DNA of 64,000 bases. Source: Liolophura sinensis. Lineage: Eukaryota > Mollusca > Polyplacophora > Chitonida > Chitonidae. The notes under the pieces are model-generated. The model made no database searches, was not told where the DNA came from, and saw only the letters and a program-made list of their open reading frames with translations. Position 1 is the first letter of the stretch; every line of letters starts with the position of its first letter. Made by a program: the position numbers and the translations under genes. The DNA is taken from the NCBI RefSeq assembly GCF_032854445.1, contig NC_088300.1:80962101-81026100 (forward strand), written 5' to 3'. Of this stretch, positions 172 to 63,600 are shown in pieces.

Positions 172-398
172 GAAATGCCACCATTGGCAGCTATAAAACC
201 CTTTCCTCCCTGAATCAGCTAGGGACGTCAAACACTGAAGCTTTGGTCCATCTGTTCCAGTTCCAGTCCAACCTGTACCACCTTCTGATGAACATAGGCA
301 GTGAGAAGGCCCAACAGAGGATTGACAATGTCAGCTATCAGTTTGTGCACTGTGTCCATCAGCTACTCTCTGCCACAAAATTCCTTACATATGCCTGA
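172..398 (+). CDS. Probable 3' terminal exon of an unrecognised gene (partial)
   Basis: After a possible acceptor (TTTTTAAG, AG at 170-171) a frame stays open for 74 codons and ends at TGA 396-398. The peptide is well mixed, amphipathic and protein-like, with segments such as ALVHLFQFQSNLYHLLMN and RIDNVSYQFVHCVHQLL, suggesting a helical C-terminus. I do not recognise the family. A further short open stretch at 1-60 (EYDETFSDQLAEDMELIL) may be the preceding exon; between them lies what looks like a decayed SINE tail (about 130-160). The 3' part of the exon is repeated twice more downstream, which supports its being older unique sequence caught in a tandem duplication. The start of the gene is outside the window. 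It could be a non-coding chance frame, but the composition argues against that. Confidence 0.4.
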
Positions 399-735
399 GG
401 TCATATTGGTATCTAGTAACTCTGTAACAGGGGGCCTGATAGAGTAAAGGCCCAACAGAGGATTGACAATGTCAGCTATCAGTTTGTGCACTGTGTCCAT
501 CAGCTACTCTCTGCCACAAAATTCCTTACATATGCCTGAGGTCATATTGGTATCAAGTAACTCTGTAACAGGGGGCCTGATAGAGTAAAGGCCCAACAAA
601 GGATTGACAATGTCAGCTATCAGTTTGTGCACTGTGTCCATCAGCTACTCTGCCACAAAATTCCTTACATATGCCTGAGGTCATAGCAGAACCCAGTGAC
701 TCAGTTACATCTGACGCAGGTCCATCCACACAGGG
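306..735 (+). repeat. 141-bp tandem repeat, about 3 copies, carrying the end of the terminal exon
   Basis: Copies begin at 306, 447 and 588 with AAGGCCCAACA. The unit includes the last 30 or so codons of the exon at 172-398, its stop codon and 3' flank. Copies 1 and 2 are almost identical; copy 3 diverges after about 690. The array therefore duplicates an exon end, as at several other exons in this window. Confidence 0.85.
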
Positions 736-1125
736 CCTTAGGAAGTAAAGACAATATGAGGCCAGTGTCTGCCCTGGCCTTGAGAATATCCAGCACAAAT
801 TACAAGTAAAAACAGGAGACAAAAGTCTGATTTGACATCTTCACAATGTAATAAAATCTTTCACATCATTCCATGGGTGATAAGTGTATGTTTGTTTTCA
901 CACCAACTTGTACATAACATGTTTATTTACAAAATTTATTAAATAATTGTATTTGAAGCTGTGTTGTAATTGTGTTTTTTATAAAATGACCAAGCTTACT
1001 CAGAAATTTGGAGGTTCTAATACAGACTCCAACATCTGAACAAAACTGCTGCCTTTTAGGAGTTTGTAGAATAACCAATACGTGCCCAGTTTGGCAGCTT
1101 TTATATAGATACGTACCAGGTTGTG
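736..1125. other. No gene seen
   Basis: AT-rich flank with an AATAAAATCTTT stretch near 850 that could be a poly(A) signal for the left-edge gene. No coding or element signature is visible. Confidence 0.3.
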
Positions 1126-1129
1126 TAGA

Positions 1130-1455
1130 TCTCTGTGAGACAAATGTATGCTGTAATACCCAGACACAGTAGCTGTATGAACAAGAAAAAACAGGAAACC
1201 ACCAAGCTGTGTGTTCTGGCAATTGTATGCTGTAATACCCAGACACAGTAGCTGTATGAACAAGAAAAAACAGGAAACCACCAAGCTGTGTGTTCTGGCA
1301 AATGTATGCTGTAATACCCAGACACAGTAGCTGTATGAACAAGAAAAAACAGGAAACCACCAAGCTGTGTGTTCTGGCAAATGTATGCTGCAATACCCAG
1401 ACACAGTAGCTGTATGAACAGGAAAAAAACAGGAAACCACCAAGCTGTGTGAGGA
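1130..1455. repeat. Minisatellite, ~80-bp unit, about 4 copies
   Basis: Repeats of a unit holding GCTGTAATACCCAGACACAG and AGGAAACCACCAAGCTGTG. Long open frames through it encode the same repeat peptide and are artefacts of the array. Confidence 0.9.
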
Positions 1456-2510: not shown

Positions 2511-2539
2511 ATTGACTGCAGATTACCGTGGGAACGCGC

Positions 2540-3805: not shown

Positions 3806-3824
3806 CACGTTCATCACACTATAC

Positions 3825-10200: not shown

Positions 10201-13200
10201 TTCTATGAAGGCAAACCAGTTAAAAAAGCTGGTTATTACAAGCTACCAACATGCACTTAAACATGACGAGCAGGTACTTTTGGAACTTTTGTTTGAGGAC
10301 ATCATCAGTTGTGACAATCTTGTGTAACGTAACTTTGTGCAGACTTACAGTAGTTGGAGTAATAGCGGAGGAATCTGTCTTCTTGGCCGTAGATGTCGGC
10401 GGGACGGAATATCGTCGCATCCGGGAACTCTTCCTTCACTGCTAGCTCACCTTTAGCCTGCAGATGACAGACCTAAGGCTTAACAACCAATACATTTCTA
10501 CTACTTCATATGAGAGTTCATCAGGATATTTTTATTTAGTTTGATTGGTGTTTTACTCAGTACTCAAGAGTATTTCACTTATACCACGGCGGCCAAAATT
10601 ATGATGCAATGAAACCGGGCAGGGCCCTGTGGTAATCCAAGATCAGGTTGCTAGCAGACCTTCACATGTATGGCCAAAGAGGGAGCCAGCAGAGAGCTAA
10701 CTTGAACTCACAATGAGCACATTGGTGAGAGACTGAATCAGAACTAGGCTAAGGCATCACCGCATGACCCAACAAACTATCCACAACAGAGAAAAGAAAA
10801 AAAAATACTGTGCCATGTAAACAAAACCCCTCAGCCTTAAGTCAAAACAATTAAAAAAAAGTCAAGGGACAAATCAGGAAAAACATGACAAGCACGCTGA
10901 AAGTCAGTACAGTTCTTGGGGAACTTAAGTTCATTGTTCAAGAGATAGCGGGATAGAGTGTTTAGCGGGCAATAACCAGACGGATCAAGATATGGATGGC
11001 CGGATGGACTAACACTGGACAGACAATGTTAATTTCCATTGGATTCCTGGTGAAAACAATTGTGATGTAAAGATTGAACATTTGTAGTCAATGTGTGGGA
11101 CATCGGGATACTCTATCTGCAACAATACTGCTTGTGATTGGTTACTTGTCTGTTATTGATTGACAGTACGGAAAGGTCTATTGGTCATGAAACACTGACA
11201 ATAAATCAACAAGAAAATGAGCAGACACACACCAACAGCTATGACACCACAGCTAAGCCAAAATAGGCTGAGGGGTAAAAAACTATACTTCCCACCACCT
11301 GAAAGAGAGCTCACTTATCTTGGTAATGAGATAATGGGAGTCTTGCTTCATACAGAGAGCTCACTTATCTTGGTAATGAGATAATGGGAGTCTTGCTTCA
11401 TACAGAGCTCACTTATCTTGGTAATGAGATAATGGGAGTCTTGCTTCATACAGAGAGCTAACTTACCATGGTGATGAGATACAGGGAGTCTTGCTTGATA
11501 CAGAGAGCTAACTTACCTTGAAGATGAGATTCTGGGTCTTGCTTGATACAGAGAGCTAACATACCTTGAAGATGAGACTCTGGGAGTCTTGCTTCATACA
11601 GAGAGCTAACTTACCATGGTGATGAGATACTGGGAGTTGTTTCATACAGTGAGCTAACTTACATTGGTGATGAGATACTGGGAGTCTTGCTTCACACAGA
11701 GAGCTAACTTACCTTGGTTATGGGATACTAGGGGACTTCCTCCACACAGAGAACTAACTTTATTTCTTGGTGATGATGATACTGGAAAACTTGCTTCACA
11801 CAGAGAGCTAATTTACCCAGTGATGAGATATTGGGAGTCTTGCTTCACACTGAGAGCTAACTTACCATGGTGATGAGATACTGGGAGTCTGGCTTCATAC
11901 AGAAAGCTAATTTACCACGGTGATGAGATACTGGGAGTCTGGCTTCACACAGAAAGCTAATTTACCATGGTGATGAGATACTGGGAGTCTTGCTTCACAC
12001 AGACAGCAAATTCACCATGGTGATGAGATAGAGGGAGTCTTGCTTCACACAGAGAGCTAACTTACGACGGTGATGGGATAGTGGGAGACTTGCATCACAT
12101 AAAAAGCTAACTTACCTTGGAAATAAGATATTGGGAGACTTGCTTCACACAGAGAGCTAACTTACTTTTGTGATGAGAAACTGGGAGTCTTGCTTCACAC
12201 AGAGCTAACTTACCACGGTGATGAGATAGTGGGAGACTTGCAACACACAAAAAGCTAACTTACCTTGTTGATGAGATACTGGGGGTCTTGCTTCACACAG
12301 AGAGCTAACTTACTTTGGTGATGAGACACTGGAACCTCACCTCATGTAGACAGCTGACTTACTTTGGTGATGAGATACTGGGAGTCTTGCTTCATACAGA
12401 GTGCTCTGCCCGGTTTCCTCCCACCAAATCATACAGAGTGCTAAGTTACCTTGGTGATGAGATACTGGGAGCCTTGCTTCATGTAAAGAGGTAACTTACT
12501 TTGGTGATGAGATACTGGGAGCCTTGCTTCATGTAGAAAGCTAACTTACTTTGGTGATGAGATACTGGGAGCCTTGCTTCATGTAGAAAGCTAACTTACT
12601 TTGGTGATGAGATACTGGGAGCCTTGCTTCATGTAGAAAGCTAACTTACTTTGGTGATGAGATACTGGGAGCCTTGCTTCATGTAAAGAGCTGACTTACT
12701 TTGGTGATGAGATACTGGGAGCCTTGCTTCATGTAGAAAGCTAACTTACTTTGGTGATGAGATACTGGGAGCCTTGCTTCATGTAAAGAGGTGACTTACT
12801 TTGGTGATGAGATACTGGGAGAATTGCTTCATGTAGAAAGCTAACTTACTTTGGTGATGAGATACTGGGAGCCTTGCTTCATGTAAAGAGCTGACTTACG
12901 TTGGTGATGAGATACTGGGAGCCTTGCTTCATGTAGAAAGCTAACTTACTTTGGTGATGAGATACTGGGAGCCTTGCTTCATGTAAAGAGGTAACTTACT
13001 TTGGTGATGAGATACTGGGAGCCTTGCTTCATGTAGAAAGCTAACTTACTTTGGTGATGAGATACTGGGAGCCTTGCTTCATGTAGAAAGCTAACTTACT
13101 TTGGTGATGAGATACTGGGAGCCTTGCTTCATGTAGATGATCTGAGGGTTAAGACTGGCGTTGAGAGCAGAGAAGTGTATCAGTCTGGACACACCACATT

Positions 13201-16200
13201 CCCGCGCTAGTCTGGCGATACGGCGACTCCCTTCCACATTCACATCATTCAATTTGTAATTCCTATTCACAAAACAAATAGTAGCAAGATACACTCACTG
13301 TAAATTTACTAAAGCATTCACATACGTGTAGACACCATACATAAAACTGGTTACAACAGCTTTACCAACACTGGACAGCAGAAAACAAAATGTTTTTGGG
13401 TTTGACCTGTCACATGCAACAGGTACTGATTTTTGTTATCTGTCTCTCTCAAATTTTATCTGTGCCAGTCTCACTATGAGAAGCCTCAATGTAGCGTGCA
13501 ATCTGATAAAATGCGACTCAGATCTTGTCCCCTAAAAATATGTGGTGTGTTTTCATGAGTAACGTGTTTGGATTCAAAAGAAAATAAAGTAAAACTGCAA
13601 CTTGCAGTTTTAATCTTTCACCAAAGAAATATATAACATGTAAATAGCACAAGATTATTGGCTTTATTTCTACTGTTACTCTGTGACCCATGGGATATTT
13701 GGTATTTTAGGTTACTCTGTGACCCATGGGATATTTGGTATTTTAGGTTACTCTGTGACCCATGGGATATTTGGTATTTTAGGTCAATCTGTGACCCATG
13801 GGATATTTGGTATTGTAGGCTACTCTGTGACCCATGGGATATTTGGTATTTTAGGTTTAAGATGATGAATATAACATCCATATAAGCAAAAGCAAAAGGG
13901 TTTTTCTGTGAATAATGGAAGAGGGTGTTCAATTGGCTACTTTTCTTTGTGAACGAGTTCAATTCCAAATGCACAAGTCATGATGTTGTTGCTTCCGCGC
14001 GAGTGTGGCGTCGTCAGCAATACAGAACACACTTGGCTCCCTGTGACAGGCGTATCTCATCATAAAGGTTTTAATGTTTGTACACTTTCAGTAAATGCCT
14101 ATAGCTTTCATCAGAATGGCTGTAAAAATTGGTGTGAAACAAGAGGGGGTGAGATTTGGCTTACTGGCATGTTAACATGTTGGAGTACAGACTTCCCCGA
14201 ACGTTTGAGAATGGCTTCTTTCCTTCATTTAATACACTGATTTAGCATAACATACATTAAAATGGCGATCATTTTACAAATTTGTTGGTTTAGTAGCTAT
14301 AAAACAATGATATTTGCACTATGGGCAATAACCCCAAGTCACTACTCACATTTAAGTTGCAATTTCTATCATCGGAAACGCATGTTAACTCCCGGAACAT
14401 TTCAGCACCCGACTTATCGATCCTTATCTCATGATATACACTGTTCTAAACTGGATTTCTTACCTGTCACTAGCAACAGGTAAGATTTTATTCTACCTGC
14501 CACAAGCCAATTTTATCTGTCCTCGAAAGGTGGACACATGAACATTTTGCGCCCTGCGGAGGCATGCTGACTTCAGCAGAAACTTCCACTGTTTTGCTCT
14601 TTTGCGAACTCCTACCAGATAAGAATCTCAAATTACAAAAACAAAATGAATTTCCTGGTGAAAATCTACCTGGTGTATTTAATTATGCACCCTGTCATAT
14701 CCTGTGTAACTCAGAGAAGGCTTACCACAATGAAATCTGCATTAATACCTATTACAGGTTATACAAGCCAGTGATGCAATCAACTCACTGTGGAAGAAAT
14801 AATACTATGCCTTCTGTCCAAATTGCCAGGCTTACTTTGTCTTGTAGTCCTTTCCTATCAAGTTGACAACCACATTAGAGTAAAGAAATAAAGGTGTACA
14901 TGGAAATGTCAGGCTTACTTTGTCTGGTCTTCCCTTCCTATTAAGTTGACAACCACATCAGAGTAAAGAAATAAAGGTGTACATGGAAATGTCAGGCTTA
15001 CTTTGTCTGGTATTCCCTTCCTATCAAGTTGACAACCACATCAAAGTAAAGAAATAAAGGTGTACATGGAAATGTCAGGCTTACTTTGTCTGGAATTCCT
15101 TTCCTATCAAGTTGACCACCACATTAGAGTAAAGAAATAAAGGTGTACATGGAAATGTCAGGCTTACTTTGTCTCGTATTCCCTTCCTATCAAGTTGACA
15201 ACCACATTAGAGTACTGCATGGCCTGGCGTACAGACTCTTCATTCCGTAGTTCATATGGCTGCAATCAGTAAGCAATATTATCACAACACTTCTCAAACC
15301 ACCGGAAACAAAACTGGGTTCTACCTGTCAGAATTTTCATATGTACAAACATTTTCAACTGACCACTTAATTAATATGGCTAACAGAAATCACAGTGTGT
15401 TTTGTAAATGCTCTTGCCTCAGGAGACAGAGTTTGTAATACCAGTGTCATGAGAGACAAATGATACTTACCAAATACACCACGAGGTGAAGAGAGGCAAA
15501 TGACAATCACCAAATCCACCACAGAGCGATGACAGACAAATGACACTCACCTAATCCATGATGAGAGGCGAATGACAATCACCAAATCCACCACAGAGCG
15601 ATGAAAGACAAATGACACTCACCAAATCCACCACAGAGCGATGAAAGACAAATGACAATCACCAAATCCACCACAGAGCGATGAAAGACAAATGACACTC
15701 ACCAAATCCACCACAGAGCGATGAAAGACAAATGACAATCACCAAATCCACCACAGAGCGATGAAAGACAAATGACACTCACCAAATCCACCACAGAGCG
15801 ATGAAAGACAAATGACAATCACCAAATCCACCACAGAGCGATGAAAGACAAATGACACTCACCAAATCCACCACAGAGCGATGAAAGACAAATGACACTC
15901 ACCAAATCCACCACAGAGCGATGAAAGACAAATGACACTCAACAAATCCACCACAGAGCGATGAAAGACAAATGACAATCACCAAATCCACCACAGTGAT
16001 GAAAGACAAATGACACTCACCAAATCACCACAGAGCAATGAAAGACAAATGACACTCACCAAATCTGTGATGAGAGACAAATGACACTCGCCAAATCCAC
16101 CACAGAGGTATGACAGACAAATGACACTCACCAATCTCGCAATGAGAGGCGAATAACAATCACCAAATCCACCACGTGGTGATGAGAGGCGAATGACACT

Positions 16201-18950
16201 CACCAAATCCACCACAAAGCAATGAGAGACAAATGACATTCACCAAATCCACCACGGAGCGATGAGAGGCAAATGACACTCACGAAATCCGCGATGAGAG
16301 GCGAATGACACTCACCAAATCCACCACTGAGCGATGAAAGACAAATGACACTAACCAAATCAACTACGAAGCAATGACAGACAAAATGACACTCATTAAA
16401 TCCACCACGAAGCAATGAGAGACAAATGACACTCACCAAATCCACCACGAAGCAATGAGAGATGAATGACACTCACCAAATCCACCATGAAGTGATAAGA
16501 AACAAATGATACTCACCAAATCCACCACCAGGCAAAGAGAGGCGAATGACACTCACCAAATCCACCATGAGGCATTGAGAGACGAATGACACTCACCAAA
16601 TTCACCATGAAGTGATGAGAGACAAATGATACTCACCAAATCCACCTCGAAGCCATGCGAGACAAGTGACACTCACCAAATTCACCATGAAGTGTTGAGA
16701 GACAAATGACACTCACCAAATTCACCATGAAGTGATGAGAGACAAATGATACTCGCCAAATCCACCTCAAAGCCATGCGAGACAAGTGACACTCACCAAA
16801 TTCACCATGAAGTGTTGAGAGAAAAATGACACTCACCAAATTCACCATGAAGTGATGAGAGACAAATGATACTCACCAAATCCACCATGAAGTGATAAGA
16901 GACAAGTGACACTCACCAAATTCACCATGAAGTGATGAGAGACAAATGATACTCACCAAATCCACCTAGAAGCCATGAGGGACAAGTAACACTCACCAAA
17001 TTCACCATGAGGTGATGAGAGACAAATGATACTCACCAAATCCACCATGAAGTGATAAGAGACAAATGATACTTACCAAATCCACCATGAAGTCATGAGA
17101 GATAAATGATACTCACCAAGAAGAGAATCTGTCCCAAGTCACCACAAAGTTTAAGAGGTGCCACATCATAAGGGTCCCCACGGTAAGGGATAATCACCTG
17201 AGATCCAATCTTACCTGTCATGCAAAAACACATGAATTAACACCAGCTCCTAAATGTCTCATCAGTAATCTCTCTTGGAATTCCTCTTTTATTTACTGAT
17301 CTATCCTGATGCAAGTGATCATTATGCATTTATTATGTTTTAATTTGCTTGGTTCTTGGAACATTTTAAAGAGAAAGATAAAAGAATATATATACCGCCA
17401 AAAATATCAAAAATGTTAAATACCTAATAAAAAGTCTCTCTTCCTCACAGGAGAAATACGAGGTGATAAACAAATCCATGAAGTTTCACCTTGGCTGTAT
17501 TTTCAAAACAACCTTCCTCATGGCATGAACTCATTCTCCTGGGATTTGTGACAACTAAGATCCAGACCAGTTGTCTTTCTGCTATTACCTGAACATAAGT
17601 GATCCTACATGTAACTGGCTTACCCAGCTTGTTGACAACATAGCTTCCCACGAAGCCAGATGCTCCAAACACAGTGGCAACAATTCCACTAAATGACGAC
17701 CGTCCTCCACGTCCTCTCTTCAGGGCAGCCAGGTTTGTGGCACTGCTGTCATGGCGCCTCTGCACAAACACTGCTCCGTTCACACAGGGAGCTTGGTGCC
17801 CTAGAGAAATCAGTGAAGTCAGGGACAGGTCAATAATCTTAAGTCTAACTTAACTTAACTTAGTCTAAAGTCATCAGGTTTATGAGTTCCTAAAAATCCA
17901 CAAGTTTATTCACTAAAACTGTGCAACCTCTTGTTTTCCAAAATGACCAATCAGAACATACAATTAAGTGTCTTGGGTTAGATTATTTATTCACAAGTCT
18001 GTTGTTAGTTATTGAAAACAGATGTATTAATTGAATGGATGTCCTTTACTTTCTTTCTGGGATGTCTATCCAAGGATCCCTTTCCAAACAGCTAAGTTAG
18101 CTGCCAAGATTTCTCTGGTATTAGCTTTTGCAAAATTTTATTCGGCCAAGAATGACCCCTCACTTTATTTAAAAACCTCATGCAGTTACCTGCCCTTTAG
18201 TTCAATTAAATAAAATGTTGAGGTCTATCTTCAACAATTTCTGATACTTGCCTGCCTCAACAATTAATCGTTCAGGCAGATAAATATCAGAAATTGATGA
18301 AGACCTCAACATTTAATTCAATTGAACTATCTGCCTTTGTAAAATATGTTGTGGCAGTCAGTACAAGGGGTCCCTTTGGGCATCACCAAGGAATCTCAGA
18401 CCCATGCAGCCTAGGACAGCCGATCGACTTTGTGCTTGACAGACGAAGATAAGTGTAAAGACGATGGGTAATTTTTGTCTTAAACACCCGGCCAGACAAA
18501 CTGCAACGGCAGCTGCACCAGATTTTTAAATGGATGGTGCTCTTCTGTTGGTTTCAGTTCATATCTGAACAAAATGTTTGCCAAACCTAATGTGGAGATT
18601 TTAAACTTGAGTGATGTCACGTGGTTAAGTGACGTTAAGTCGTTGAAGAGGCAGCTTTTCATAATAAACCTCTGAGAAGGAGCTGATTGAATAACAATAG
18701 GATCACCTTAGTCTTTACAACTGCCTACTGTATCCAAGGGCTAGCACCATGCAGAGCCTAATTATCGTAGCGTTTTCCAGTCGCCTTCGCCAGTGGTTAA
18801 CTCTTGACAATTGCATGTTCAACATGTGATGAAACAAGTTATTTCGACTAAGTCTCAAGATTGCTTTGTAAATTCTAAAACGCTCAAATGTGAAAAAGAA
18901 AACGTCTTACGCCCAGCAACGGCGATATTTCTCAGCACCAACACCGACAT
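4288..18950 (-). CDS. NDUFA9: NADH:ubiquinone oxidoreductase subunit A9 (complex I, 39 kDa), 11 exons, 389 aa
   Basis: Accessory subunit of mitochondrial complex I, an atypical short-chain dehydrogenase fold that binds NADPH structurally on the matrix arm. Exons, high to low: 18950-18911, 17800-17624, 17214-17117, 15259-15168, 13262-13100, 10457-10349, 9897-9827, 9484-9408, 6269-6174, 6008-5942, 4467-4288. All introns are GT-AG and phases join to 1170 nt including TAG. The N-terminus has several Arg and no acidic residue before Asp31, fitting a mitochondrial presequence. Residues 59-65 are GASGFVG, the Rossmann glycine motif, and [19 protein letters not shown] matches the family signature. 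Length is close to human (377 aa). Introns 3, 4 and 5 largely consist of minisatellites whose units contain the 3' edge and donor of exons 3, 4 and 5. The gene looks intact. Confidence 0.95.
4880..5746. mobile_element. Non-autonomous DNA transposon, hAT-like, 867 bp
   Basis: Inverted termini: CAGGGTTGGATCCAG at the left, and the reverse complement of CAGGGTTGGATACAG at the right (14 of 15 match). The element is flanked by CAAAT direct repeats at 4875-4879 and 5747-5751, a likely 5-bp target duplication. It sits in NDUFA9 intron 10 and has no transposase frame. CAGGG ends suggest hAT, although hAT usually makes 8-bp duplications, so the superfamily is tentative. Confidence 0.65.
6233..6340 (-). 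repeat. Diverged duplicate of the NDUFA9 exon 9 acceptor edge
   Basis: Exon 9's first 40 nt and acceptor (6233-6280) have an imperfect second copy at about 6286-6335: TGTAGTCAATGAT, ACAGGT.GTA and GATGAGGGCT recur in order. It is older and weaker than the other exon-edge duplications. Confidence 0.5.
6395..6960. repeat. Minisatellite, ~43-bp unit, about 13 copies
   Basis: Unit built from ACAACACTGGCAGTGATCC and CCCATCAATGAGTTAACAC, in NDUFA9 intron 8. Divergent units lie in the middle (6680-6760), uniform ones at the ends. Confidence 0.95.
7480..8110 (+). mobile_element. Penelope-like retroelement fragment (reverse transcriptase 3' part)
   Basis: The frame from 7524 reads [24 protein letters not shown] and [17 protein letters not shown]. 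These resemble the FLD...YRKPTHTDRYL...HP block of Penelope-like reverse transcriptases. Homology resumes after a nested SINE at 7865, where a segment around [17 protein letters not shown] matches the next conserved block. It lies antisense in NDUFA9 intron 8, is 5' truncated, and is not functional. A related non-LTR family cannot be excluded. Confidence 0.6.
7720..7864 (+). repeat. SINE (type 1) inserted in the Penelope-like fragment
   Basis: Flanked by perfect ATCATCCAATC direct repeats at 7709-7719 and 7865-7875, an 11-bp target duplication. It contains AAGGTCTGCCAGTAACCTGC, GGGTTTCCCCC, CCTCCCACCATAA, GTGAAATATTCTTCAGTACG and the AAACGCCAATCAAATAAATA tail. The 5' end is truncated: no tRNA head is present. 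Confidence 0.85.
8290..9150. repeat. Minisatellite, ~53-bp unit, about 15 copies
   Basis: Unit: TTGTTATCCATACATTTGTT, CTGTTAAGGTCACATGCTG and TGTTTCACCTAAAG. In the 3' half a longer variant with a second TTATCCATACATTCGTTC appears, so two unit lengths coexist. It lies in NDUFA9 intron 8, just short of exon 8. Confidence 0.95.
10533..10720 (-). repeat. SINE copy (type 1), reverse orientation
   Basis: Reading minus strand: AAAACACCAATCAAAC tail at 10535-10555, AAATACTCTTGAGTAC, then the CCGCCGTGG, AGGTCTGC and TAGCAACCTG blocks. Same family as 7720-7864. It lies in NDUFA9 intron 5. Confidence 0.7.
11290..13130 (-). repeat. 50-bp minisatellite containing the NDUFA9 exon 5 donor, ~36 copies
   Basis: On the gene strand the unit holds ATGAAGCAAGGCTCCCAGTA, TCTCATCACCAAA, then GTAAGTTAGCTTTC. 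The first 33 nt are the last 33 nt of exon 5 (ends 13100), followed by its donor. Units near the exon are almost identical; those from 11290 to 12300 are diverged, with many keeping GTAAGTTAGC or similar. Intron 5 thus carries dozens of decoy copies of the exon 5 edge. Read-through from exon 5 meets TAG within three codons. Confidence 0.95.
13680..13856. repeat. 36-bp minisatellite, 5 copies
   Basis: Unit: TTACTCTGTGACCCATGGGA followed by TATTTGGTATTTTAGG, period exactly 36 bp, so both strands show open repeat frames that are not genes. NDUFA9 intron 4. Confidence 0.95.
13857..14820. other. NDUFA9 intron 4 sequence without recognisable element
   Basis: Several 60-100 codon frames occur here but none has recognisable protein character. 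No repeats were noticed. Confidence 0.4.
14822..15200 (-). repeat. 83-bp tandem repeat containing the NDUFA9 exon 4 donor, ~4-5 copies
   Basis: Each unit repeats the last 45 nt or so of exon 4 (gene strand: TAATGTGGTTGTCAACTTGA, TAGGAAGGGAA, ACAAA) and the donor GTAAGCCTGACA plus intron sequence. The copy that continues into a complete exon ends at 15168. GGCTTAC recurs every 83 bp (near 14912, 14995, 15078, 15161). Confidence 0.92.
15465..17117 (-). repeat. 40-bp minisatellite starting at the NDUFA9 exon 3 donor, ~41 copies
   Basis: On the gene strand each unit has TTGGTGAGTGTCATTTGTC, TTTCATCGCTCTGTGGTGGA and TT. The real exon 3 ends TTCTTG and its donor is GTGAGTATCATTTATC, so the array begins exactly at the junction and nearly every unit repeats TTGGTGAGT. 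It fills almost all of intron 3. Distal units are very uniform; those near the exon vary more. Confidence 0.95.
18195..18335. repeat. Imperfect palindrome / MITE-like inverted repeat
   Basis: GTTCAATTAAATAAAATGTT at about 18200 and its imperfect reverse complement AACATTTAATTCAATTGAAC at 18309-18328 close a stem of about 55 bp (AGGTCT, CAATTTCTGATA and GCCTG also pair), with a short loop near 18262. It could be a small MITE in NDUFA9 intron 1; its ends were not resolved. Confidence 0.6.
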
Positions 18951-20044: not shown

Positions 20045-20083
20045 GATTAATGCTGTGGGAGGAACTTTGAACCAGAACTAACC

Positions 20084-20512
20084 ATGTCTTACATGTTAGC
20101 TCATTTACATAATGGTTGGCAAGTCGATCAGGCCATTTTGTCGGAGGAGGATCGGGTCGTGGTGATACGATTTGGACACGACTGGGACCCCACCTGCATG
20201 GTAATGGATGAGACCCTATACAAGTGTGCCGAGAGGATACAAAAATTTGCTGTGGTGTATTTAGTGGACATATCTGAGGTGCCAGACTTTAACAAAATGT
20301 ATGAGTTGTACGATCCTTGTACAAGTATGTTTTTCTACAGAAACAAGCACATCATGATTGACTTGGGCACGGGAAACAACAACAAGATCAACTGGGCAAT
20401 GGAGGATGTGCAAGAGTTCATTGACATTGTAGAAACGGTGTATCGTGGCGCGAGGAAAGGTCGTGGCTTGGTAGTCTCACCTAAAGACTACTCCACCAAA
20501 TACCGCTACTGA
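20084..20512 (+). CDS. TXNL4A: Thioredoxin-like 4A / DIM1, U5 snRNP 15 kDa protein, 142 aa
   Basis: Spliceosomal protein of U5 snRNP, with a thioredoxin fold lacking the CxxC redox pair. The 142-residue length equals human, the start MSYM(L)AHLHNGWQVDQAI and the end GRGLVVSPKDYSTKYRY are family-invariant, and FGHDWDPTC replaces the redox motif. Most differences lie in the segment DETLYKCAERIQKFAVVY. The coding region is a single uninterrupted exon, though vertebrate genes are split. An acceptor at 20045 ahead of the ATG indicates a spliced 5' UTR, so this looks like a real gene with intron loss rather than a processed copy. No poly-A tract or target duplication was noticed. Confidence 0.97.
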   Translation: MSYMLAHLHNGWQVDQAILSEEDRVVVIRFGHDWDPTCMVMDETLYKCAERIQKFAVVYLVDISEVPDFNKMYELYDPCTSMFFYRNKHIMIDLGTGNNNKINWAMEDVQEFIDIVETVYRGARKGRGLVVSPKDYSTKYRY

Positions 20513-40900: not shown

Positions 40901-43900
40901 ATGAACAGATTTGTGATTCAAACCACAGAGATGTGAACATGTTTCAGCATGACTCACCAGCTGGAGTTTGGTCAGGGATTTGTATGAACATGTTTCAGCG
41001 TGACTCACCAGCTGGAGTTTGGTCATGGATTTGTATGAACATGTTTTAGGGTGACTCACCAGGTGGAGCGTGGTCAGGGATTTGTATGAACATGTTTCAG
41101 CGTGATTCACCAGCTGTAGTTTGGTCAGGGATTTGTATGAACATGTTTCAGCGTGACTCACCAGCTGGAGTTTGGTCAGGGATTTGTATGAACATGTTTC
41201 AGCGTGACTCACCAGCTGGAGTTTGGTCATGGATTTGTATGAACAGATTTGTGATTCAAACAACAGAGATGTAAACATGTTTCAGCGTGACTCACCAGCT
41301 GGAGTTTGGTCATGGATTTGTATGAACATGTTTTAGGGTGACTCACCAGGTGGAGCGTGGTCAGGGATTTGTATGAACATGTTTCAGCGTGATTCACCAG
41401 CTGTAGTTTGGTCAGGGATTTGTATGAACATGTTTCAGCGTGACTCACCAGCTGGAGTTTGGTCAGGGATTTGTATGAACATGTTTCAGCGTGACTCACC
41501 AGCTGGAGTTTGGTCAGGGATTTGTATGAACAGATTTGTGATTCAAACAACAGAGATGTAAACATGTTTCAGCGTGACTCACCAGCTGGAGTTTGGTCAG
41601 TGATTTGTATGAACATGTTTCAGCGTGACTCACCAGCTGGAGTTTGATCAGGGATTTCTATGAACATGTTTCAGCGTGACTCACCAGCTGGAGTTTGGTC
41701 ATGGATTTGTATGAACATGTTTCAGGGTGACTCACCAGGTGGAGCGTGGTCAGGGATTTGTATGAACATGTTTCAGCGTGATTCACCAGCTGGAGTTTGG
41801 TCAGGGATTTGTATGAACATGTTTCAGCGTGATTCACCAGCTGGAGTTTGGTCAGGGATTTGTATGAACATGTTTCAGCGTGACTCACCAGCAGGAGTTT
41901 GGTCAGGGATTTGTATGAACAGATTTGTGATTCAAACAACAGAGATGTGAACATGTTTCAGCGTGATTCACCAGCTGGAGTTTGGTCAGGGATTTGTATG
42001 AACATGTTTTAGCGTGACTCACCAGGTGGAGCGTGGTCAGGGATTTGTATGAACATGTTTCAGCGTGATTCACCAGCTGGAGTTTGGTCAGGGATTTGCA
42101 TGAACAGATTTGTGATTCAAACAACAGAGATGTGAACATGTTTCGGCGTGACACACCAGCTGGAATTTGGTCAGGGATTTGTATGAACAGATTTGTGATT
42201 CAAACAACAGAGATGTGAACATGTTTCAGCATGGCTCACCAGCTGGAGTTTGATCAGGGATTTGTATCAACATGTTTTAGCATGACTCACCAGCTGGAGT
42301 TTGGTCAGGGATTTGTATGAACATGTTTCAGCGTGACTCACCAGCTGGAGTTTGGTCATGGATTTGTATGAACATGTTTCAGCGTGACTCACCCGCTGGA
42401 GTTTGGTCAGTGATTTGTATGAACATGTTTCAGCGTGACTCACCAGCTGGAGTTTGGTCAGGGATTTGTATGAACATGTTTCAGCGTGACTCACCAGCTG
42501 GAGTTTGGTCAGGGATTTGTATGAACATGTTTCAGCGTGACTCACCAGCTGGAGTTTGGTCAGTGATTTGTATGAACATGTTTCAGCGTGACTCACCAGC
42601 TGGAGTTTGGTCAGTGATTTGTATGAACATGTTTCAGCGTGACTCACCAGCTGGAGTTTGGTCAGGGATTTGTATGAACATGTTTTAGCGTGACTCACCA
42701 GCTGGAGTTTGGTCAGGGATTTGTATGAACATGTTTCAGCGTGACTCACCAGCTGGAGTTTGGTCAGGGATTTGTATGAACATGTTTCAGCGTGACTCAC
42801 CAGCTGGAGTTTGGTCAGGGATTTGTATGAACATGTTTCAGCGTGACTCACCAGCTGAAGTTTGGTCAGGGATTTGTATGAACATGTTTTAGCGTGACTC
42901 ACCAGCTGGAGTTTGGTCAGGTAGCGCTTCCACCAGAGGTACTTCTGAAACTGTGGTCCCAGAGCCGAGACTCCATAGTACGTATACATCACAACATGGA
43001 TGAAAGAGTTCAGCATGGCACCGAAGAAAGCTGAAAAACATGAAAACACAGATTCAACACCTGTGTTCACATAACCCCACTGTCATCACATCGTAATCTG
43101 TAATTCATAACAATAACAAATTACCCGATCTGGGATTACATCAACTGGAAGTGGACCGAATTTCGCAAGATTTTTCTCTGGTAACATACATAGACTTTGT
43201 AGAAAGTTTAAAATACCCCCTGATTCATATGATCAGTTAGGCTGTATTTCATGCAGACAAACAATTTTAACTTGTGCAATCAGATGGTAGCAGTTTTGAC
43301 GCTTGTTCATCAAAGCTTAGCTTTTACAAATCTACCTGATAGCTAAGGGAGACCACTCCAATAAACTACTAACTCCACAGCTACAGTTTAGAGAACAAAG
43401 ATTTCCAGTTTGATACAGGAAAAAGTGAAGTTGTCTTACACTGTCCTCCTGCGACCCACTTGACACCGATCCACCAGATAGGAAACATGGTCGCGTGATG
43501 ATACACATGCAGAAATGACACCTGATTGTTTTTTTTCCGTAAAATGAAGAAAACTGTATCAAGCATTTCCACACATTTGGAGAAGTAAAACCACCACAAA
43601 GCCTTTGCTATCTGTAAAAACACAAACAATCAATTACATCACATGACGTTTTACAATGTTCTTTACTCAGGAAAATAAAATTAGGGTTTAATGCAAAAAC
43701 AAAGCAACATTTATATGAAATTTAGTTTCAAAAAAATCAAAAATTTAATGAGAGTTGTTTTGTGTTTAAACATCATACTAATTCCGAATTTTGTAAAAAC
43801 ACTTTGATATAACCAACTCACCCTCATTTCATTCACATCGTACGTATAATTAACAGGCTGGCAATAATAACTATATCAAACTAATTCCGAATTTTGTAAA

Positions 43901-46266
43901 AACACTTTGATATAACCAACTCACCCTCATTTCATTCACATCGTACGTATAATTAACAGGCTGGCAATAATAACTATATCAAACTAATTCCGAATTTTGT
44001 AAAAACACTTTGATATAACCAACTCACCCTCATTTCATTCACATCGTACGTATAATTAACAGGCTGGCAATAATAACTATATCAAACTAATTCCGAATTT
44101 TGTAAAAACACTTTGATATAACCAACTCACCCTCATTTCATTCACATCGTACGTATAATTAACAGGCTGGCAATAATAACTATATCAAACTAATTCCGAA
44201 TTTTGTAAAAACACTTTTATATAACCAACTCACCCTCATTTCATTCACATCGTACGTGTAATTAACAGGCTGGCAATAATAACTGTATCCCAGATTTGTG
44301 GACGCAATAATGATCTGAAACAGAATTACAAAATAAATACACGTACACCAAAATTCATAGTTCTAAAAAAAAGCCCCCTTGTAATGAAGGTTCTACTTAC
44401 AATGGGCAAATTTTACACTTGAGGTCAACATCTAGAGCACAGAATTATGACACTGATTACCTGTTTCTGACAATGTACAGAAGACAGCAAAAATGACCAA
44501 GAGAATAACATATTTAACAATAATACTCCATCATGGTAACTTTAAAGCTATTTCGCATATGCCTTCAAGTTTTATCTTAATGTTTCAGGCCAATATTATA
44601 TTTTTACTATTTACGTAGAGTCTATCTTCAGAGACAATACTGGAGATTTTTTGTAAAAAATTGGTAAGCACTAATCAGAGTGATTGCATTTCACCCACTA
44701 TTTTGCAGTGACCAGTATTTTCTGGTTTAGCCTCTCTAATTAGAACACATATGAGAAGAGCAGTCTTTGACCAGGCACAATGCAAACCATCTGAGATCAT
44801 ACCTCTGTGAATATATGCAAATTCATGATGATTAGACACAAGTTGTAAAAGAAGAGTGTGTATTTGAATTTCAATGCTTCCCGACTCTCCATGATTTTGG
44901 GACCGATCCATACAATAAAGAGATAGAGGCCTGTGATGGCTAAAGTGGGCAGGTAACTCTGCATCAGAAACCAGTTGGCCACCCGTTCATCTGAAAGCAA
45001 ACCAATGGGGGAGGCACTTGTGAATTCCCAGATGTCAGCTTTACAACAGATACTGTATTTACAGCTGTAACTGAAAAAAGATTTACCACAGGTACATGTA
45101 TATATTTCCATCAAATAACATCAGCTTTAATAGAGGTAGTCGTGCAGCAATCAATATACCTTCATCACCTCCATCAGTTTTAATACAGGTAAATATACTT
45201 TACTCAAATCAACTTCAATACAGATATCATACAAATACCTTACAAACTTTTTTGATTGTCCATAAAACATTCACTACATTACACTTACATGTACTATTAT
45301 AGTATATATGCCAGCAATGAATCGCATAGTACAAGCTTTATATAAAGAAAAACACGGGCTTTAATTTTTTGACATTAACCATATATGTAATGTCGCACTT
45401 CTATTACTAATCAATATGCAGAGCTACATATACTTGAGACAGGGATGTTGTATAGATGCAGGAGGTCATCGACGAGAGAACACAGATGTTACAGAGTTCT
45501 GGCTGTGTCCTAATGACCTCAACCATACCTGTGTCAGACAAAAAGGCACCTGGAAGTGTACAATGCCTCAGTGTATCATATGACACACCAGAAATGGTGA
45601 CATACACCTGCACAGGTGCACAACTATAGAGTCCACTATATCATTACACTGCACCTAATCTGCATCTGCTGATCTGCAGTCCATTCAATAAATGCTACTG
45701 TGTGGGCTACATACTCCCGGCACTGCGGCTGATCCAGAACAACATCTGACCCTGTGATAGCTACACTAAGCAGGCACACAGTAAGAGTACATAGTTCGGA
45801 TACCCTCAATGGTGCACGTCTTCAAGAACTTCAACAATAAGGTAACATTTAACACAAAATATCTGGCTTCATTCTATCAAAAATTAATACACCATTAAAC
45901 TATTGCACAGTGAGATAACAATATGGGTCAAGGCATATATTTTGATACATGATTTAAATTTATAATTAGCTCAAGAACTGGAAAAAACCTATCTTACATG
46001 TGTAGTTCTGACTGGAAAGTCCTGAGGAATTTCTCACATATCAAGAATTGATTGAGAATGAAAACCATACAGAGCTCATGTCTATAGATGTGTATGCTGA
46101 AACCTGACGGTTGTACTACTGATATAACTGACATCCACTAATCATCACTGACAAAACGTGATCCTTCGGGAAGATGGAAGGAGAAAGTGAGATCATTACC
46201 TGACATGGAATGGGCCTTGTTGTAGAAGGTTTGAAAATGGTGAATCTTGTCCATAATGAGATCCAT
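34948..46266 (-). CDS. ELOVL4: ELOVL4-type very-long-chain fatty acid elongase, 7 coding exons, 302-303 aa (ELOVL-A)
   Basis: ER multipass 3-ketoacyl-CoA synthase that adds two carbons to long acyl-CoAs. Exons, high to low: 46266-46200, 44990-44803, 44314-44234, 43611-43440, 43030-42903, then 6A 36749-36588 or 6B 36977-36813, and 35058-34948. All are GT-AG and phases agree: 909 nt with 6A, 912 with 6B. The catalytic HxxHH box is HVYHH at residues 147-151. [31 protein letters not shown] and [16 protein letters not shown] are ELOVL4-like. The C-terminus is HKKEK, a KKxx ER-retrieval signal. The 5' UTR is spliced (acceptor ending at 46291). Exons 1, 3 and 5 each have their edge and splice site copied in an adjacent array. 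Orthology to vertebrate ELOVL4 is inferred from motifs only. Confidence 0.92.
35490..36145. repeat. 20/26-bp minisatellite, ~31 copies
   Basis: Unit GGGGAAAACCTACTGTGCCT, with some units longer by GTGTCT. Because of this mix all three forward frames stay open for 200 or more codons, a pure artefact. ELOVL-A intron 6. Confidence 0.97.
36588..36749 (-). CDS. ELOVL4: ELOVL-A exon 6A (alternative)
   Basis: A 162-nt, phase 0-0 exon with acceptor GATGATTTTAG and donor GTAAAG. It encodes 54 residues from [15 protein letters not shown] through [15 protein letters not shown] to [16 protein letters not shown], the last transmembrane helices and cytosolic tail of an elongase. It is closer to ELOVL4 (CPFPKWMHWALIAYA in human) than 6B. 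It is homologous along its whole length to the exon 63 nt upstream. Confidence 0.9.
36813..36977 (-). CDS. ELOVL4: ELOVL-A exon 6B (alternative)
   Basis: A 165-nt, phase 0-0 exon with acceptor CTCCGGACCAG and donor GTAAATG. It encodes 55 residues from [15 protein letters not shown] through [15 protein letters not shown] to [17 protein letters not shown], matching 6A position by position at about half its residues. The intron between 6B and 6A is only 63 nt. Including both would insert an extra pair of helices, so exclusive use is the likely mode. No stop or broken splice site is present in either copy. Confidence 0.85.
37508..37595. repeat. 29-bp perfect inverted repeat, 30-nt loop
   Basis: GTGTGCAGTGGTACAAGCTG... 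at 37508-37536 is the exact reverse complement of 37567-37595. The right arm is the start of the first unit of the 59-bp array that follows, so the array begins with one inverted partial unit. Confidence 0.92.
37567..38560. repeat. 59-bp minisatellite, ~17 copies
   Basis: Unit: GGTACCCAGTTTGTACCACT, ACACACACCTCACTAACAGC, TGTCTATATGGGGTGTTCA. In ELOVL-A intron 5; no exon edge is included. Confidence 0.97.
38561..40770. other. ELOVL-A intron 5 sequence, no element recognised
   Basis: AT-rich; short frames only. Nothing supports a gene or a named repeat. Confidence 0.4.
40775..42925 (-). repeat. 51-bp minisatellite containing the ELOVL-A exon 5 donor, ~37 copies
   Basis: On the gene strand the unit is CTGACCAAACTCCAGCTG (the last 18 nt of exon 5), then GTGAGTCACGCTGAAACA and TGTTCATACAAATCC. 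The true junction is at 42903. Units from 42300 to 42900 are nearly identical. Below 42200 a longer variant carrying GATTTGTGATTCAAACAACA recurs about every 290-ish bp, a higher-order pattern. The unit is 17 codons and has no stop, so the exon frame runs on through some 12 units. Confidence 0.97.
43780..44285 (-). repeat. 103-bp repeat containing the ELOVL-A exon 3 donor, 5 copies
   Basis: CTCACCCTCATTTCATTCAC recurs every 103 bp (43818, 43921, 44024, 44127, 44230). Each unit copies the last ~50 nt of exon 3 and its donor GTGAGTTGG plus intron sequence ending in ATTAGTTTGATATAG. Copies 1-4 are almost base-identical; the true exon copy (ending 44234) differs at a few sites. Confidence 0.95.
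44991..46199. other. ELOVL-A intron 1, no element recognised
   Basis: AT-rich with short frames. A degenerate TTTAATACAGGT-like repeat near 45125-45230 was noticed but is too short to name. Confidence 0.4.
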
Positions 46267-46269: not shown

Positions 46270-46630
46270 TAAAAATTATACCTGTGTCACCTGAAACAAC
46301 AGAAATGTCACAAATTATACCTATGTCACATGAAACAACAGAAACGTCACAAATTATACCTGTGTCACCTGAAACAACAGAAACGTCACACATTATACCT
46401 ATGTCACCTGAAACAACAGAAACGTCACAAATTATACCTGTGTCACCTGAAACAGAAACATCACAAATTATACCTGTGTCGCCCGAAACAACAGAAACAT
46501 CACAAATTATACCTGTGTCACCTGAACAACAGAAATGTCACAAATTATACCCGTGTCACCTGAAACAACAGAAATGTCACAAATTATACCTGTGTCACCC
46601 GAAACAACAGAAATGTCACAAATTCGATAC
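46270..46630 (-). repeat. 39-bp repeat containing the ELOVL-A exon 1 acceptor, ~9 copies
   Basis: Gene strand unit: GACGTTTCTGTTGTTTCAG followed by GTGACACAGGTATAATTTGT. The exon holding the start codon begins with GTGACACAGG after TGTTTCAG at 46291, so each unit repeats the polypyrimidine tract, AG and the first 15 or so exon bases. Unlike most others here this array extends from an acceptor. Confidence 0.88.
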
Positions 46631-56370: not shown

Positions 56371-56439
56371 CAACATGGGGGGGGGGGGGGGGCTCCACTC
56401 CCACCCGTCGCTTCCTACGCCACTGAGGAACATTTTGCC

Positions 56440-59394: not shown

Positions 59395-59540
59395 TGGGAA
59401 GGTCTCTCAGCAACCTGCGGATGGTCGTGGGTTTCCTCCTGACTATGCACCGTTTCCTCCCACCATAATGCTGGTCGCCGTCGTATGAATGAAATATTCT
59501 TAAGTACAGCTTGAAACACCAATCAAATAAATGAATAAAA
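59395..59540 (+). repeat. SINE copy (type 1)
   Basis: GTGGGAAGGTCTCTCAGCAA, CTGCGGATGGTCGTGGG, CCTCCCACCATAATGCTGG, ATATTCTTAAGTACAGC and AACACCAATCAAATAAATGA. TATATAGGGCC flanks both sides (59371 and 59542), a possible target duplication. Confidence 0.82.
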
Positions 59541-60667
59541 TATATAGGGCCTATATACCCACGGGTGTTAACTATCCCTTTATTGGATCAGTTTAACTTA
59601 TTACGCAAGGGGTTTAAATAATATATAAGCTTGCGTTTATGCTAGCGTGTATCCATTGGCCAGTCGTACAAATGCAATCATTTCAGACAGGGGATTCCCC
59701 ATGACTGAATGTGGCTTGCACGTGGCATCTGGTCTACCTGAATCCCAGGTAGCATATACCGCTGGTCTCTGATTTTAAATTTTGCAAAATTCTAAATAAA
59801 TGTACGTGTACTAACTGGAAAGTTAGTGGTCATAAAAAATTTCCTACAAAACAGCACATCGATGAAACGAAATTTGTTTGTTTTGTGTGATATAACATCC
59901 TCAGAAGTAGTATTAAATGGCAAAGTATATTACGTTCCGCTAAAAAGTGTTTGAAGTCATGCAATAAAGCCTGTAACATGGGAAGTGAGTGCAAATTTGG
60001 AAGTTGGCTGTAGATCGTGGATGCTAAACATCGCTGAGGCCCACACGTGTAGTACGACTGGACATGCGTCGTGCGGGCACCTGTAGGCAGGCTCCCCGTG
60101 TGTGCATGTCCTGCTCTGTGTTCATACCCATACCACACTAACCTACATTAACACTGACAGATGTCTAATGAGGCATGAACACAGAATCAACACAATCAAA
60201 GCATGCGTTGCTATCAACAACTCGTCGTGGTGATCCCCTTTGCCCATAAATAACTCTATCACACCCAGCCAATGAATAAATCCGAAAAGACAATATTGAC
60301 AGTTCATGTCAAATAAGATAGATGTTGATTGGCTGTAGCGCACACCCTATTTCACACACGTGTGGCGAGCGTAAGCACGTTGGACTGTATTAGCTGATAG
60401 CAACGGTAATGTACCGATACTTAAGATTATTCAATAAGCAATCCCTCTCAGCTGTTTTTATCTTCCAAATAATTGTGGGGTAAATCATGTATAAGGTCAG
60501 TTGTTCAATTATGACAGCTTAAGAAAAAAAGTTAGAAAAAGGAAATTTAGTCACCTTAATTGTGAACAAAATACAACAGGTCCAGACATCAGAATTTGTT
60601 GACGTTAACATAAGGGGTCATCTGTTTTGTTACCAAGAAGAAATGTATTTTCTCCCGTTCTTTTCAG
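59541..60667. promoter_or_regulatory. Upstream region of ELOVL-B
   Basis: Contains no recognisable gene. The start-codon exon of ELOVL-B begins at an acceptor (CGTTCTTTTCAG at 60667), so the promoter and an untranslated exon should lie in or above this stretch. Confidence 0.35.
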
Positions 60668-60687
60668 AACCCTTGCTGGTTTTTACA

Positions 60688-63600
60688 ATGCTGTCATTGA
60701 TATCTGCGACACGTAACTTTGAGAAGATGTCCAAGGAGCTAGCAGGTGATTGTGTTTGTTGTTGTTAGGTATATTTACATAGGCTAGCTAACTATCTCAC
60801 TGCAGTTTAATATTACATCAATATTGGCACAAACAATCATTTCAGTCAATCATTTATTTAACCTGTTCTGTGCTTTTGCTCCAGACTCCCACACATCAGA
60901 CTGGTTCCTCATATCTAACCCCTGGCCCACCCTTGCCCTGATATGTATGTACGTCATCCTGGTGTTGTATCAGCTAATCTGTCGTGTATTATTGCTCCAG
61001 ATTCCTGCACATCAGACTGGTTCCTCATACCTTACCCCTGGCCCACCCTTGCCCTGATGGGTATGTACTTCATCCTGGTGTTGTATCAGCTAATCTGTCG
61101 TGTATTATTGCTCCAGATTCCCACACATCAGACTGGTTCCTCATATCTTACCCCTGGCCTACCCTTGCCCTGATGGGTATGTACTTCATCCTGGTGTTGT
61201 ATCAGCTAATCTGTCGTGTATTATTGCTCCAGATTCCCGCACATCAGACTGGTTCCTCATATCTTACCCCTGGCCCACCCTTGCCCTGATGGGTATGTAC
61301 GTCATCCTGGTGCTGTATCAGCTAATCTGTCCTGTGGTATTGCTTCATACTCCCGCACATTAGACTGGTTCCTCATACCTTACCCCTGGCCCACCCTTGC
61401 CCTGATGGGTATGTACTTCATCCTGGTGTTGTATCAGCTAATCTGTCGTGTATTATTGCTCCAGATTCCCACACATCAGACTGGTTCCTCATATCTTACC
61501 CCTGGCCTACCCTTGCCCTGATGGGTATGTACTTCATCCTGGTGTTGTATCAGCTAATCTGTCGTGTATTATTGCTCCAGATTCCCGCACATCAGACTGG
61601 TTCCTCATATCTTACCCCTGGCCCACCCTTGCCCTGATGGGTATGTACGTCATCCTGGTGCTGTATCACCTAATCTGTCCTGTGTTATTACTCCAGACTC
61701 CCGTACATCAGACTGGTTCCTCATATCCTCCCCGTGGCCCACCCTTACCCTGGTGAGTGTGTACGTCATCCTGGTGCTGTATCAGCTAATCCGTCCTGTG
61801 TTATTGCTCCAGACTCCCGTACATCAGACTGGTTCCTCATATCCTCCCCGTGGCCCACCCTTACCCTGGTGAGTGTGTACGTCATCCTGGTGCTGTATCA
61901 GCTAATCTGTCCTGTGTTATTACTCCAGACTCCCGTACATCAGACTGGTTCCTCATATCCTCCCCGTGGCCCACCCTTACCCTGGTTAGTGTGTACGTCA
62001 TCCTGGTGCTGTATCAGCTAATCTGTCCTGTGTTATTACTCCAGACTCCCGTACATCAGACTGGTTCCTCATATCCTCCCCGTGGCCCACCCTTACCCTG
62101 GTGAGTGTGTACGTCATCTTGGTGCTTCAGGGACAACAATGGATGAAGAAGAGAGAGGCATTTCAGCTGAAGACGCTCATGCTGGTGTATAATGCCACAC
62201 TGGTCATCCTTTCCTTGTATATGTTTTATGAGGTAGGTCATATCACATCGGAATCAAAAACTGTATACCCACGCACATCCATATTTGACTTTACAGCAAC
62301 CCAATGTTTGTGTATTAAAACACGCCTACTTACAGATGCTAAGTCAAAAAAGGTAATATTCTGGATGTGATACAAGGTATAAGTAGGAGGCAGCCAATTC
62401 CTGTTCAATGTGTACAGAAATGAAAGTACTTTTCCGTTCAGCACATGTGGAGCGGTTTAAGTGAAAGTCTGCCTTTCTTCAGATCATTCTCTCAGCAAAT
62501 AACATTCTCTGCTTCATTACTACAGGATTGTCGTTGAAAATGCCCAAAACCATCATGCTCTAACACTGACTGTCAATCATTTTAGTTCCTGGTGTCGTCG
62601 TGGTTACGACCTGGTTTCAGCCTCATATGTCAGCCGCTGGAGTATGACCAGCCTGCAGCACTAAGGGTGAGAGACAGCAGACCAGCACAATACCAGCAAT
62701 TCTCCAACTTTAATCAATGTAGTAATATTTTATATGCATTCTGAAAACATAGATGATATGATTTTGAAGATTTTAAAATGTATTCTTAAACAGAAATTAT
62801 AAAAGAATCTGTCAATGTCAGACAACATTTCTCTCATATGCTATAGCATGAACTATGTATGGGGGTGAGTTTGTGAAGGATTTAGTTTTCTCTGAAGCCT
62901 GGTGTATTAACTCCTCCCAGTTTGTGAAGAATTAGGCAAGCACAAACACTTGTTAGGGCAGCTTACCAGTTTGAAACATCTCATGCGTATCTAATGCTGA
63001 GTAACATAAGCTCTACAGCTACGATAAGTTCACTTTATGTGACATATATTGCAACAATCGCAGCTAATTTTCAGTTGTTTTCAAATGAATTTCACTTTGT
63101 GATTGTGACTTCCACTGTTGTGCTGAGTACAACCATGCATAAGCTAATGAGCTTTCTTCTGGGTAGCAGTTGTGGGCAGACAAGTAACAGAAAACAGAAT
63201 CTCGTCTATTTGTGACATCTTTTCTTCCTCTAGCTTGCGGAAGTCTGCTGGTGGTATTACGTCTCCAAACTCATTGAGCTGATGGACACGGTGAGTAGCC
63301 TGTGGTAATCTGTCGACAAAAAAAATTCCTTTCCAGTTCAGGTGTCCTTCAAATTTCAGGCCAAAAATAGCCTAATGCAATTTTAATGCCTTCAGGTTAT
63401 CAAACATTCAACATGATTAAATCAGGCTGATTAACTTTGGTTTACCAGTTCCTGTGCTGCTCATTAGACACATGTTCCTGTGCTGCTCATTAGGCGCATG
63501 TTCCTGTGCTGCTCATTCGGCACATGTTCCTGTGCTGCTCATGTCTCAATAGACACGCGTTTCTGTGCTGCTCAATAGACACGCGTTTCTGTGCTGCTCA

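Follow-up and report, generated by a model that had tools for sequence, protein, structure and literature searches.

Genes and tandem arrays in the window

We analyzed a 64-kb stretch of the genome of the chiton Liolophura sinensis (NC_088300.1, positions 80,962,101 to 81,026,100; "the window"), in which the repeat units of several minisatellite arrays contain the end of an exon together with its splice site. The genes involved are NDUFA9, a renalase-like gene, and two ELOVL genes (ELOVL-A and ELOVL-B). Across these genes and others from the same genome, arrays lie over splice donors and hardly ever over splice acceptors. Our data come from one assembly and cover the window, about 242 kb of other genomic sequence, and a small replicate set of genes.

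The gene models are based on homology and were built with our own spliced aligner and GT..AG introns. NDUFA9 is on the minus strand and has 10 coding exons; the renalase-like gene is on the plus strand and has 3 exons; ELOVL-A is on the minus strand and has 6 clear exons; and ELOVL-B is on the plus strand, with its final exons in the flanking locus L017. Spliced alignment did not locate the first coding exon of NDUFA9 or of ELOVL-B. Identity to the NCBI proteins of Liolophura sinensis is 99% for the renalase-like gene and 98% for ELOVL. The renalase-like exon at 25182-26178 (plus strand) has one frame change in the assembly, and the NCBI protein is labelled LOW QUALITY. The C-terminal residues of the NCBI ELOVL-A protein had no convincing placement in the spliced alignment. 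ELOVL-A also has two neighboring and similar open reading frames that resemble last exons (36588-36749 and 36759-37019, minus strand). The NCBI protein matches 36749-36588, and the pair could be alternative terminal exons or include a remnant.

Tandem Repeats Finder reported 88 rows in the window, which cover 33% of it. With a common filter (period of at least 20 and length of at least 100), arrays cover 32.1% of the window, versus 8.5% of 15 random 10-kb loci when pooled (0-39% for single loci). The right flank is also rich in arrays (29%; window end plus 20 kb). Because the window is exceptionally rich in arrays, many of its splice sites must fall within them.

Splice junctions inside repeat units

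For each modelled splice site, we took 40 bases (20 from the exon and 20 from the intron) and looked for copies elsewhere in the window at 75% identity. We found copies for 6 of 19 donors and for 1 of 21 acceptors. All of the copies were inside the site's own array and none were on the opposite strand, so the arrays look independent of each other. This agrees with the earlier note on this DNA, which had described separate events instead of one spreading family.

That note had also listed which exon edges lie in arrays (Table 1). Spliced alignment and copy counting bore out both renalase-like donors, both ELOVL-A donors, and two of the three NDUFA9 donors (15168 and 13100). The third, at 17117, is marginal: the donor is repeated, but the array holds just 3 exon bases, and the 40-base junction has no copy at 75% identity. 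Among acceptors, only that of ELOVL-B exon 2 clearly lies within the repeat unit. At the six clear donors, the junction copies are not confined to the vicinity of the exon but extend over almost the full array. The statement that neighboring introns are largely built from copies of their own exon edges is right for some of them.

Table 1. Tandem arrays at gene features of the window
Unit (bp)	Positions	Strand	Feature covered or adjoined	Exon bp in unit	Copies	Splice signal
40	15449..17119	-	donor 17117 of NDUFA9 exon 17214-17117 (marginal case)			
83	14827..15214	-	donor 15168 of NDUFA9 exon 15259-15168	47	5	GT 5/5
50	11304..13137	-	donor 13100 of NDUFA9 exon 13262-13100	38	34-35	GT in 31
62	23981..24444	+	donor 24009 of renalase-like exon 23898-24009	29	9-11	
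106	26139..26744	+	donor 26178 of renalase-like exon 25182-26178	40	6	
103	43772..44289	-	donor 44234 of ELOVL-A exon 44314-44234	56	5	
51 (and 83)	40725..42921	-	donor 42903 of ELOVL-A exon 43030-42903	19	38	GT 38/38
116	60876..62126	+	acceptor 62045 of ELOVL-B exon 62045-62232	82	11	AG in 10
39	46273..46624	-	7 bp upstream of ELOVL-A start codon (46266)			repeated acceptor-like sites
141	306..685	+	3' coding end, stop codon (396-398), and 3' untranslated region (UTR) of DNAI7-like gene			no splice site

Three other proposed edges were not confirmed. The array at the left end of the window was thought to include the splice edge of a terminal exon, and we rejected it as a splice case: it covers the end of a DNAI7-like coding sequence, the stop codon, and the 3' UTR. 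The open reading frame there matches residues 661-715 of 716 of a chain of PDB 8j07 (a short match, E = 5e-5), its codon score is slightly negative (-1.7), and a Pfam search of this frame gave no match. We also rejected NDUFA9 exon 9: its edge region agrees with the array beside it at 18 of 24 bases at best, and at a single place. Finally, the acceptor claimed for ELOVL-A exon 1 is unproven, as that array lies upstream of the ATG and no transcript shows a 5' UTR exon. The array contains six acceptor-like sites, of which the nearest is at 46290 (score 5.0), so it might possibly include the acceptor of a 5' UTR exon.

Donors and acceptors in a broader set of introns

To obtain replicate genes, we searched the chiton's own genome with PF00118 and found 50 exon matches in 11 clusters. 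We used eight of these (seven CCT genes and one HSP60), which were picked by family and compactness before any repeats were examined. The clusters left out were C3, C5:5566404, and C6:7942446, and the last two matched in long unbroken frames. Introns obtained with CCT and HSP60 reference sequences were filtered with limits on the length of the exon (30 nt) and on gaps in the protein (6 aa) and for GT..AG ends; failures were dropped, and 75 introns passed. Some CCT exon matches (G000:C1:72038329, C6:51811805, C6:7824721, and C1:56789306) lie in open frames that, at 458-779 aa, greatly exceed the exon in length. Arrays do not account for all of the long CCT frames, as L019 has none.

We also used genes that we recognized in the right flank (EDEM2 and RPS10) or in the random loci (a PGRP gene in L014 and an EGF-type gene in L011). 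A codon-score exon finder yielded few usable exons. Exon candidates in L003, L009, L012, L013, L015, and L016 were left out of the models, and the weak outer exons of RPS10 and EDEM2 were kept out of the counts. Also kept out were a site at L021 446 (the start of a local alignment, not an acceptor), the possible ELOVL-A acceptor at 46290, and a possible ELOVL-A donor at 36588, which has no array. In L022 (2089-2340) and L018 (2271-2622), arrays begin 2 and about 23 bases past the donor, inside the intron, and these were not scored as donor cases.

For introns with both ends modelled, 13 of 110 donors and 0 of 110 acceptors lie in arrays (P = 0.00017, Fisher's exact test; P = 0.00024, sign test; because sites of one gene are not fully independent, these and the other P values are optimistic). 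The earlier note had lumped donors with acceptors; the data split them sharply. By source, the counts for donors and acceptors are 7 and 0 of 21 introns in the window (with ELOVL-B extended into L017 and unpaired sites omitted), 4 and 0 of 75 in the CCT/HSP60 genes (CCT5, CCT3 twice, and CCT6), and 2 and 0 of 14 in the four other genes (EDEM2 and the EGF-type gene). Outside the window, this is 6 versus 0 of 89 (P = 0.029, Fisher's exact test; P = 0.031, sign test). In the EGF-type gene, the array copies are too diverged for the 40-base test. A further donor of this gene, whose downstream exon was not placed, lies in an 87-bp array; if we include it and the ELOVL-B acceptor, the ratio is 14 donors to 1 acceptor.

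The asymmetry extends into the introns. At 100 bp inside the intron, arrays cover 16 of 93 donor sides and 4 of 93 acceptor sides in the window and the CCT/HSP60 genes (P = 0.008, Fisher's exact test), including 9 of 73 and 2 of 73 in the CCT/HSP60 genes. Introns seem to have a greater density of arrays on their donor side. For the donors of the window, array cover is flat from the intron up to the junction (7/19) and is 0/18 at sixty bases into the exon. At acceptors, it falls from 8/16 at 500 bases to 3/21 at 100 bases and 1/21 at the junction.

A proposed explanation

We think that the asymmetry is probably the product of ordinary tandem duplication, which is tolerated at donors provided that splicing takes the first one, and is mostly purged at acceptors. 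In repeat-rich DNA, short segments in many locations would undergo tandem duplication and subsequent expansion. If a duplication spans a donor, then the exon would stay attached to the first exon end and donor in the series. With splicing at this first donor, the later copies would be plain intron, so the change would be nearly neutral, and such arrays could persist and lengthen. When an acceptor is duplicated, the true site would instead have rivals of equal quality upstream, and their use would add repeat sequence to the exon. Acceptor-spanning arrays would hence be mostly removed. More generally, a duplication would be tolerated as long as function stays with its first copy, and eliminated wherever a copy further upstream would displace the original.

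On this explanation, splicing in vivo would use the first donor, the other donor copies would be without use, and selection, not mutation, would underlie the asymmetry. The array across the DNAI7-like stop codon may follow the same logic: the first copy of the signal would work and later copies would be ignored. The putative acceptor array of an ELOVL-A 5' UTR exon would fit as well, because additional 5' UTR leaves the frame unharmed. Among the mechanisms suggested earlier, the best fit is selection on the places that intact junctions can occupy; junction breaks or R-loops would not be required, although they may play a part.

Comparison with chance and with a mutational preference

We compared the positions of the arrays to two null models that bracket the truth: rotating the arrays disregards the resistance of coding DNA to arrays, and placing them at random under a limit on the exon bases covered disregards array growth. 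In the window, 7 of 19 donors are in arrays, versus 6.3 expected by rotation (P = 0.44), and 1 of 21 acceptors, versus 6.9 expected (P = 0.010). With random placement (at most 85 exon bp covered), 0.95 donors and 1.06 acceptors are expected, and 0 of 2000 trials reached 7 donors. In other words, the number of donors is not above what array density predicts, yet it is above what random starts predict. For the window and the CCT/HSP60 genes together (n = 96), rotation predicts 15.9 donors and 16.0 acceptors, 11 and 0 were seen, and 0 of 4000 trials gave zero acceptors. Placement with at most 100 exon bases predicts 3.9 of each (P = 0.0007 for the excess of donors and P = 0.013 for the deficit of acceptors).

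The excess of donors over random placement raises the possibility that donors are active hotspots, where duplications begin at exon ends through breaks tied to transcription, R-loops, or pausing of the polymerase. That the junction copies span nearly the entire array in the six clear window cases also fits with this idea. However, the excess over constrained placement (at most 100 exon bases) is limited to the window (7 versus 1.2 expected), which drives the pooled value and was picked for this very feature. In the CCT/HSP60 genes, the 4 donors in arrays are not significantly above the 2.7 expected from this placement (P = 0.29) and are fewer than the 8.9 expected by rotation (P = 0.016). We therefore consider hotspots to be unlikely as the main cause, and the claim that exon edges as such seed arrays is not supported.

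Another view is that chance and ascertainment suffice: one third of the window is arrays, and it was noticed since some of them touch exons. The rotation result for donors is just what this predicts, and arrays take up roughly four times as much of the window as of the random loci. But chance fails for the acceptors, as none of the 96 paired acceptors is in an array, and for the coding DNA of the window, of which 7.8% is in arrays versus 33% by rotation (P = 0.002). Chance by itself is thus quite improbable. When we asked how often a 40-mer from the window has a copy within 4 kb, this was so for 33.9% of random noncoding 40-mers (n = 3000), 48.2% of intronic ones (n = 1349), and 4.1% of wholly coding ones (n = 940). 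By this measure, donors are much like noncoding DNA and acceptors are much like coding DNA.

Copy structure and the choice of donor

In the gene models, the true donor is the first copy (copy 0) in 11 of 11 donor cases from the window and the CCT genes, and the true acceptor of ELOVL-B is the last of 11 copies. The true site is matched in score by many of the other copies (28 of 37 at ELOVL-A 42903 and 23 of 34 at NDUFA9 13100), which means that site strength is not enough to account for the choice. The NCBI proteins for ELOVL-A (P0199) and the renalase-like gene (P0079) align over the array sites without added residues, which is consistent with use of the outermost junction.

Use of a later donor would also truncate the protein, given the in-frame stops that follow most true donors. 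Among nine donor cases with a single open exon frame, eight have an in-frame stop 1-66 nt past the true donor, inside the first unit; for the ninth, at CCT3, no stop appears in the 400 nt that we read. Two frames are open at ELOVL-A 42903, one of them without a stop, and the exon of renalase-like 26178 could not be assigned a frame because of its frame change.

Might the repeated donors instead be retained for use, as spare donors or as decoys that regulate splicing? GT is kept in many copies (5/5, 31/35, 38/38, and 12/12 in four arrays), and in 8 of 11 arrays the donor core has diverged less than the remaining columns of the unit (118 changes in 8 columns versus 854 in 38). But lower divergence near the junction is expected in any case, because copies were found by their similarity around it. 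Also, the core is more diverged in the other three arrays (13100, 26178, and one CCT3 site), and elsewhere the values are nearly equal (0.030 versus 0.031, or 0.188 versus 0.205 for CCT6). Just 13 of 24 copies at CCT6, and 5 of 7 copies at a CCT3 site, keep GT. When the donor core is ranked against all 8-base slides, it falls in the lowest 5% only at 17117, so we did not find conservation of the donor copies to be a convincing sign of use. Together with the in-frame stops, this makes retention for use very improbable.

Lastly, collapsed or expanded repeats could have misplaced exon copies, as tandem arrays are a known source of assembly errors and the Liolophura japonica assembly GCA_032854445.1 is described as having HiFi reads at only 14x coverage (PMC11068029), but such an artefact is extremely unlikely, given that the longest arrays (2-2.6 kb) are shorter than the mean read (8.3 kb in the same description), the copies carry distinct substitutions, and the pattern recurs on contigs C1, C8, and C10.

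Other features of the window

An intact, intronless open frame of the DIM1/TXNL4A type (PF02966) lies in a single exon at 20051-20512 (plus strand) and is possibly a working retrocopy or a gene that lost its introns. Pieces of a retrotransposon pol gene (RT_RNaseH and the H2C2 integrase domain) are at 57933-58925 (minus strand).

Discussion

Several results weigh against tolerance over donors and purging over acceptors as the full explanation. The replication in the CCT/HSP60 genes is thin if taken alone (4 versus 0 of 75; P = 0.12, Fisher's exact test). EDEM2 and RPS10 share the array-rich stretch of the window, and L011 was pursued partly because arrays adjoined its exons. The ELOVL-B array shows that an acceptor array can persist. 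The CCT/HSP60 donors fall below the rotation expectation, so donors are not simply neutral ground, and the window's excess over constrained placement may reflect a mutational preference for donors. A broader rule, in which the first transcribed donor is used whatever follows it and acceptors cannot be multiplied in this way, perhaps with some contribution from a mutational hotspot at donors, is one that we put forward tentatively.

The chiton arrays are minisatellites of the mirage type, a kind that is known from amphioxus. The accessible parts of two papers (PMC3087553, PMC3902484) give this name to repeats across exon-intron boundaries and report them in Adh3, the globins BflGb6 and BflGb9, PGBD5, and TnC. 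In both animals, the units span the boundary, carry splice signals, and vary in length from gene to gene. In the chiton, the units span the boundary at six donors and one acceptor of the window (19-82 exon bases) and at four CCT donors; the window's units of 40-116 bp belong to no common family, with junction 40-mers that match their own array only.

There are also differences. The chiton is a mollusc, its 64 kb hold many cases with as many as 38 copies, and almost only donors are involved, while the amphioxus mirages affect both donors and acceptors, according to the same portions of these papers (the acceptors include BflGb6 and PGBD5). In amphioxus, length instability and regular splicing, which seems to be undisturbed, are described there from experiments; the chiton arrays are known here from sequence alone.

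Tandem duplication that copies splice signals is also the basis of the Rogers model, in which introns are gained by tandem duplication of AG/GT proto-splice sites (as cited in PMC3087553). In contrast, the chiton introns are at positions supported by homology and carry copies of their own edge. Intronic minisatellites are reported from intron 3 of an abalone TSSK1-like gene (27-bp unit; PMC6905558) and from intron 1 of an earthworm metallothionein gene (PMC12783039); the accessible text describes units within introns, as in the chiton, and no exon edge within the unit. Human genes in segmental duplications also have internal tandem repeats that bear on exon structure, as far as the available part of PMC2812944 goes. 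In the accessible portions of the literature on repeats over exon-intron boundaries, we found no mollusc mirage, no genome-wide survey of mirages, and no count of donors versus acceptors, and those of the chiton genome publications do not mention junction-spanning repeats.

Our results extend a curiosity of amphioxus to a mollusc and suggest that mirages can be frequent instead of exotic. They also replace the claim that arrays start at exon edges with a sharper one that can be tested: arrays cross donors and stop short of acceptors. Junction arrays are traps for gene prediction and for the reading of introns as exon duplications. With as many as 38 near-identical consensus donors in conserved genes, the donor arrays would put splice-site choice to a natural test, and these loci could reveal, without engineering, how the spliceosome chooses among dozens of nearly equal donors. 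If the pattern is general, then the split between donors and acceptors across repeat-rich animal genomes would measure the order rule of splice-site choice.

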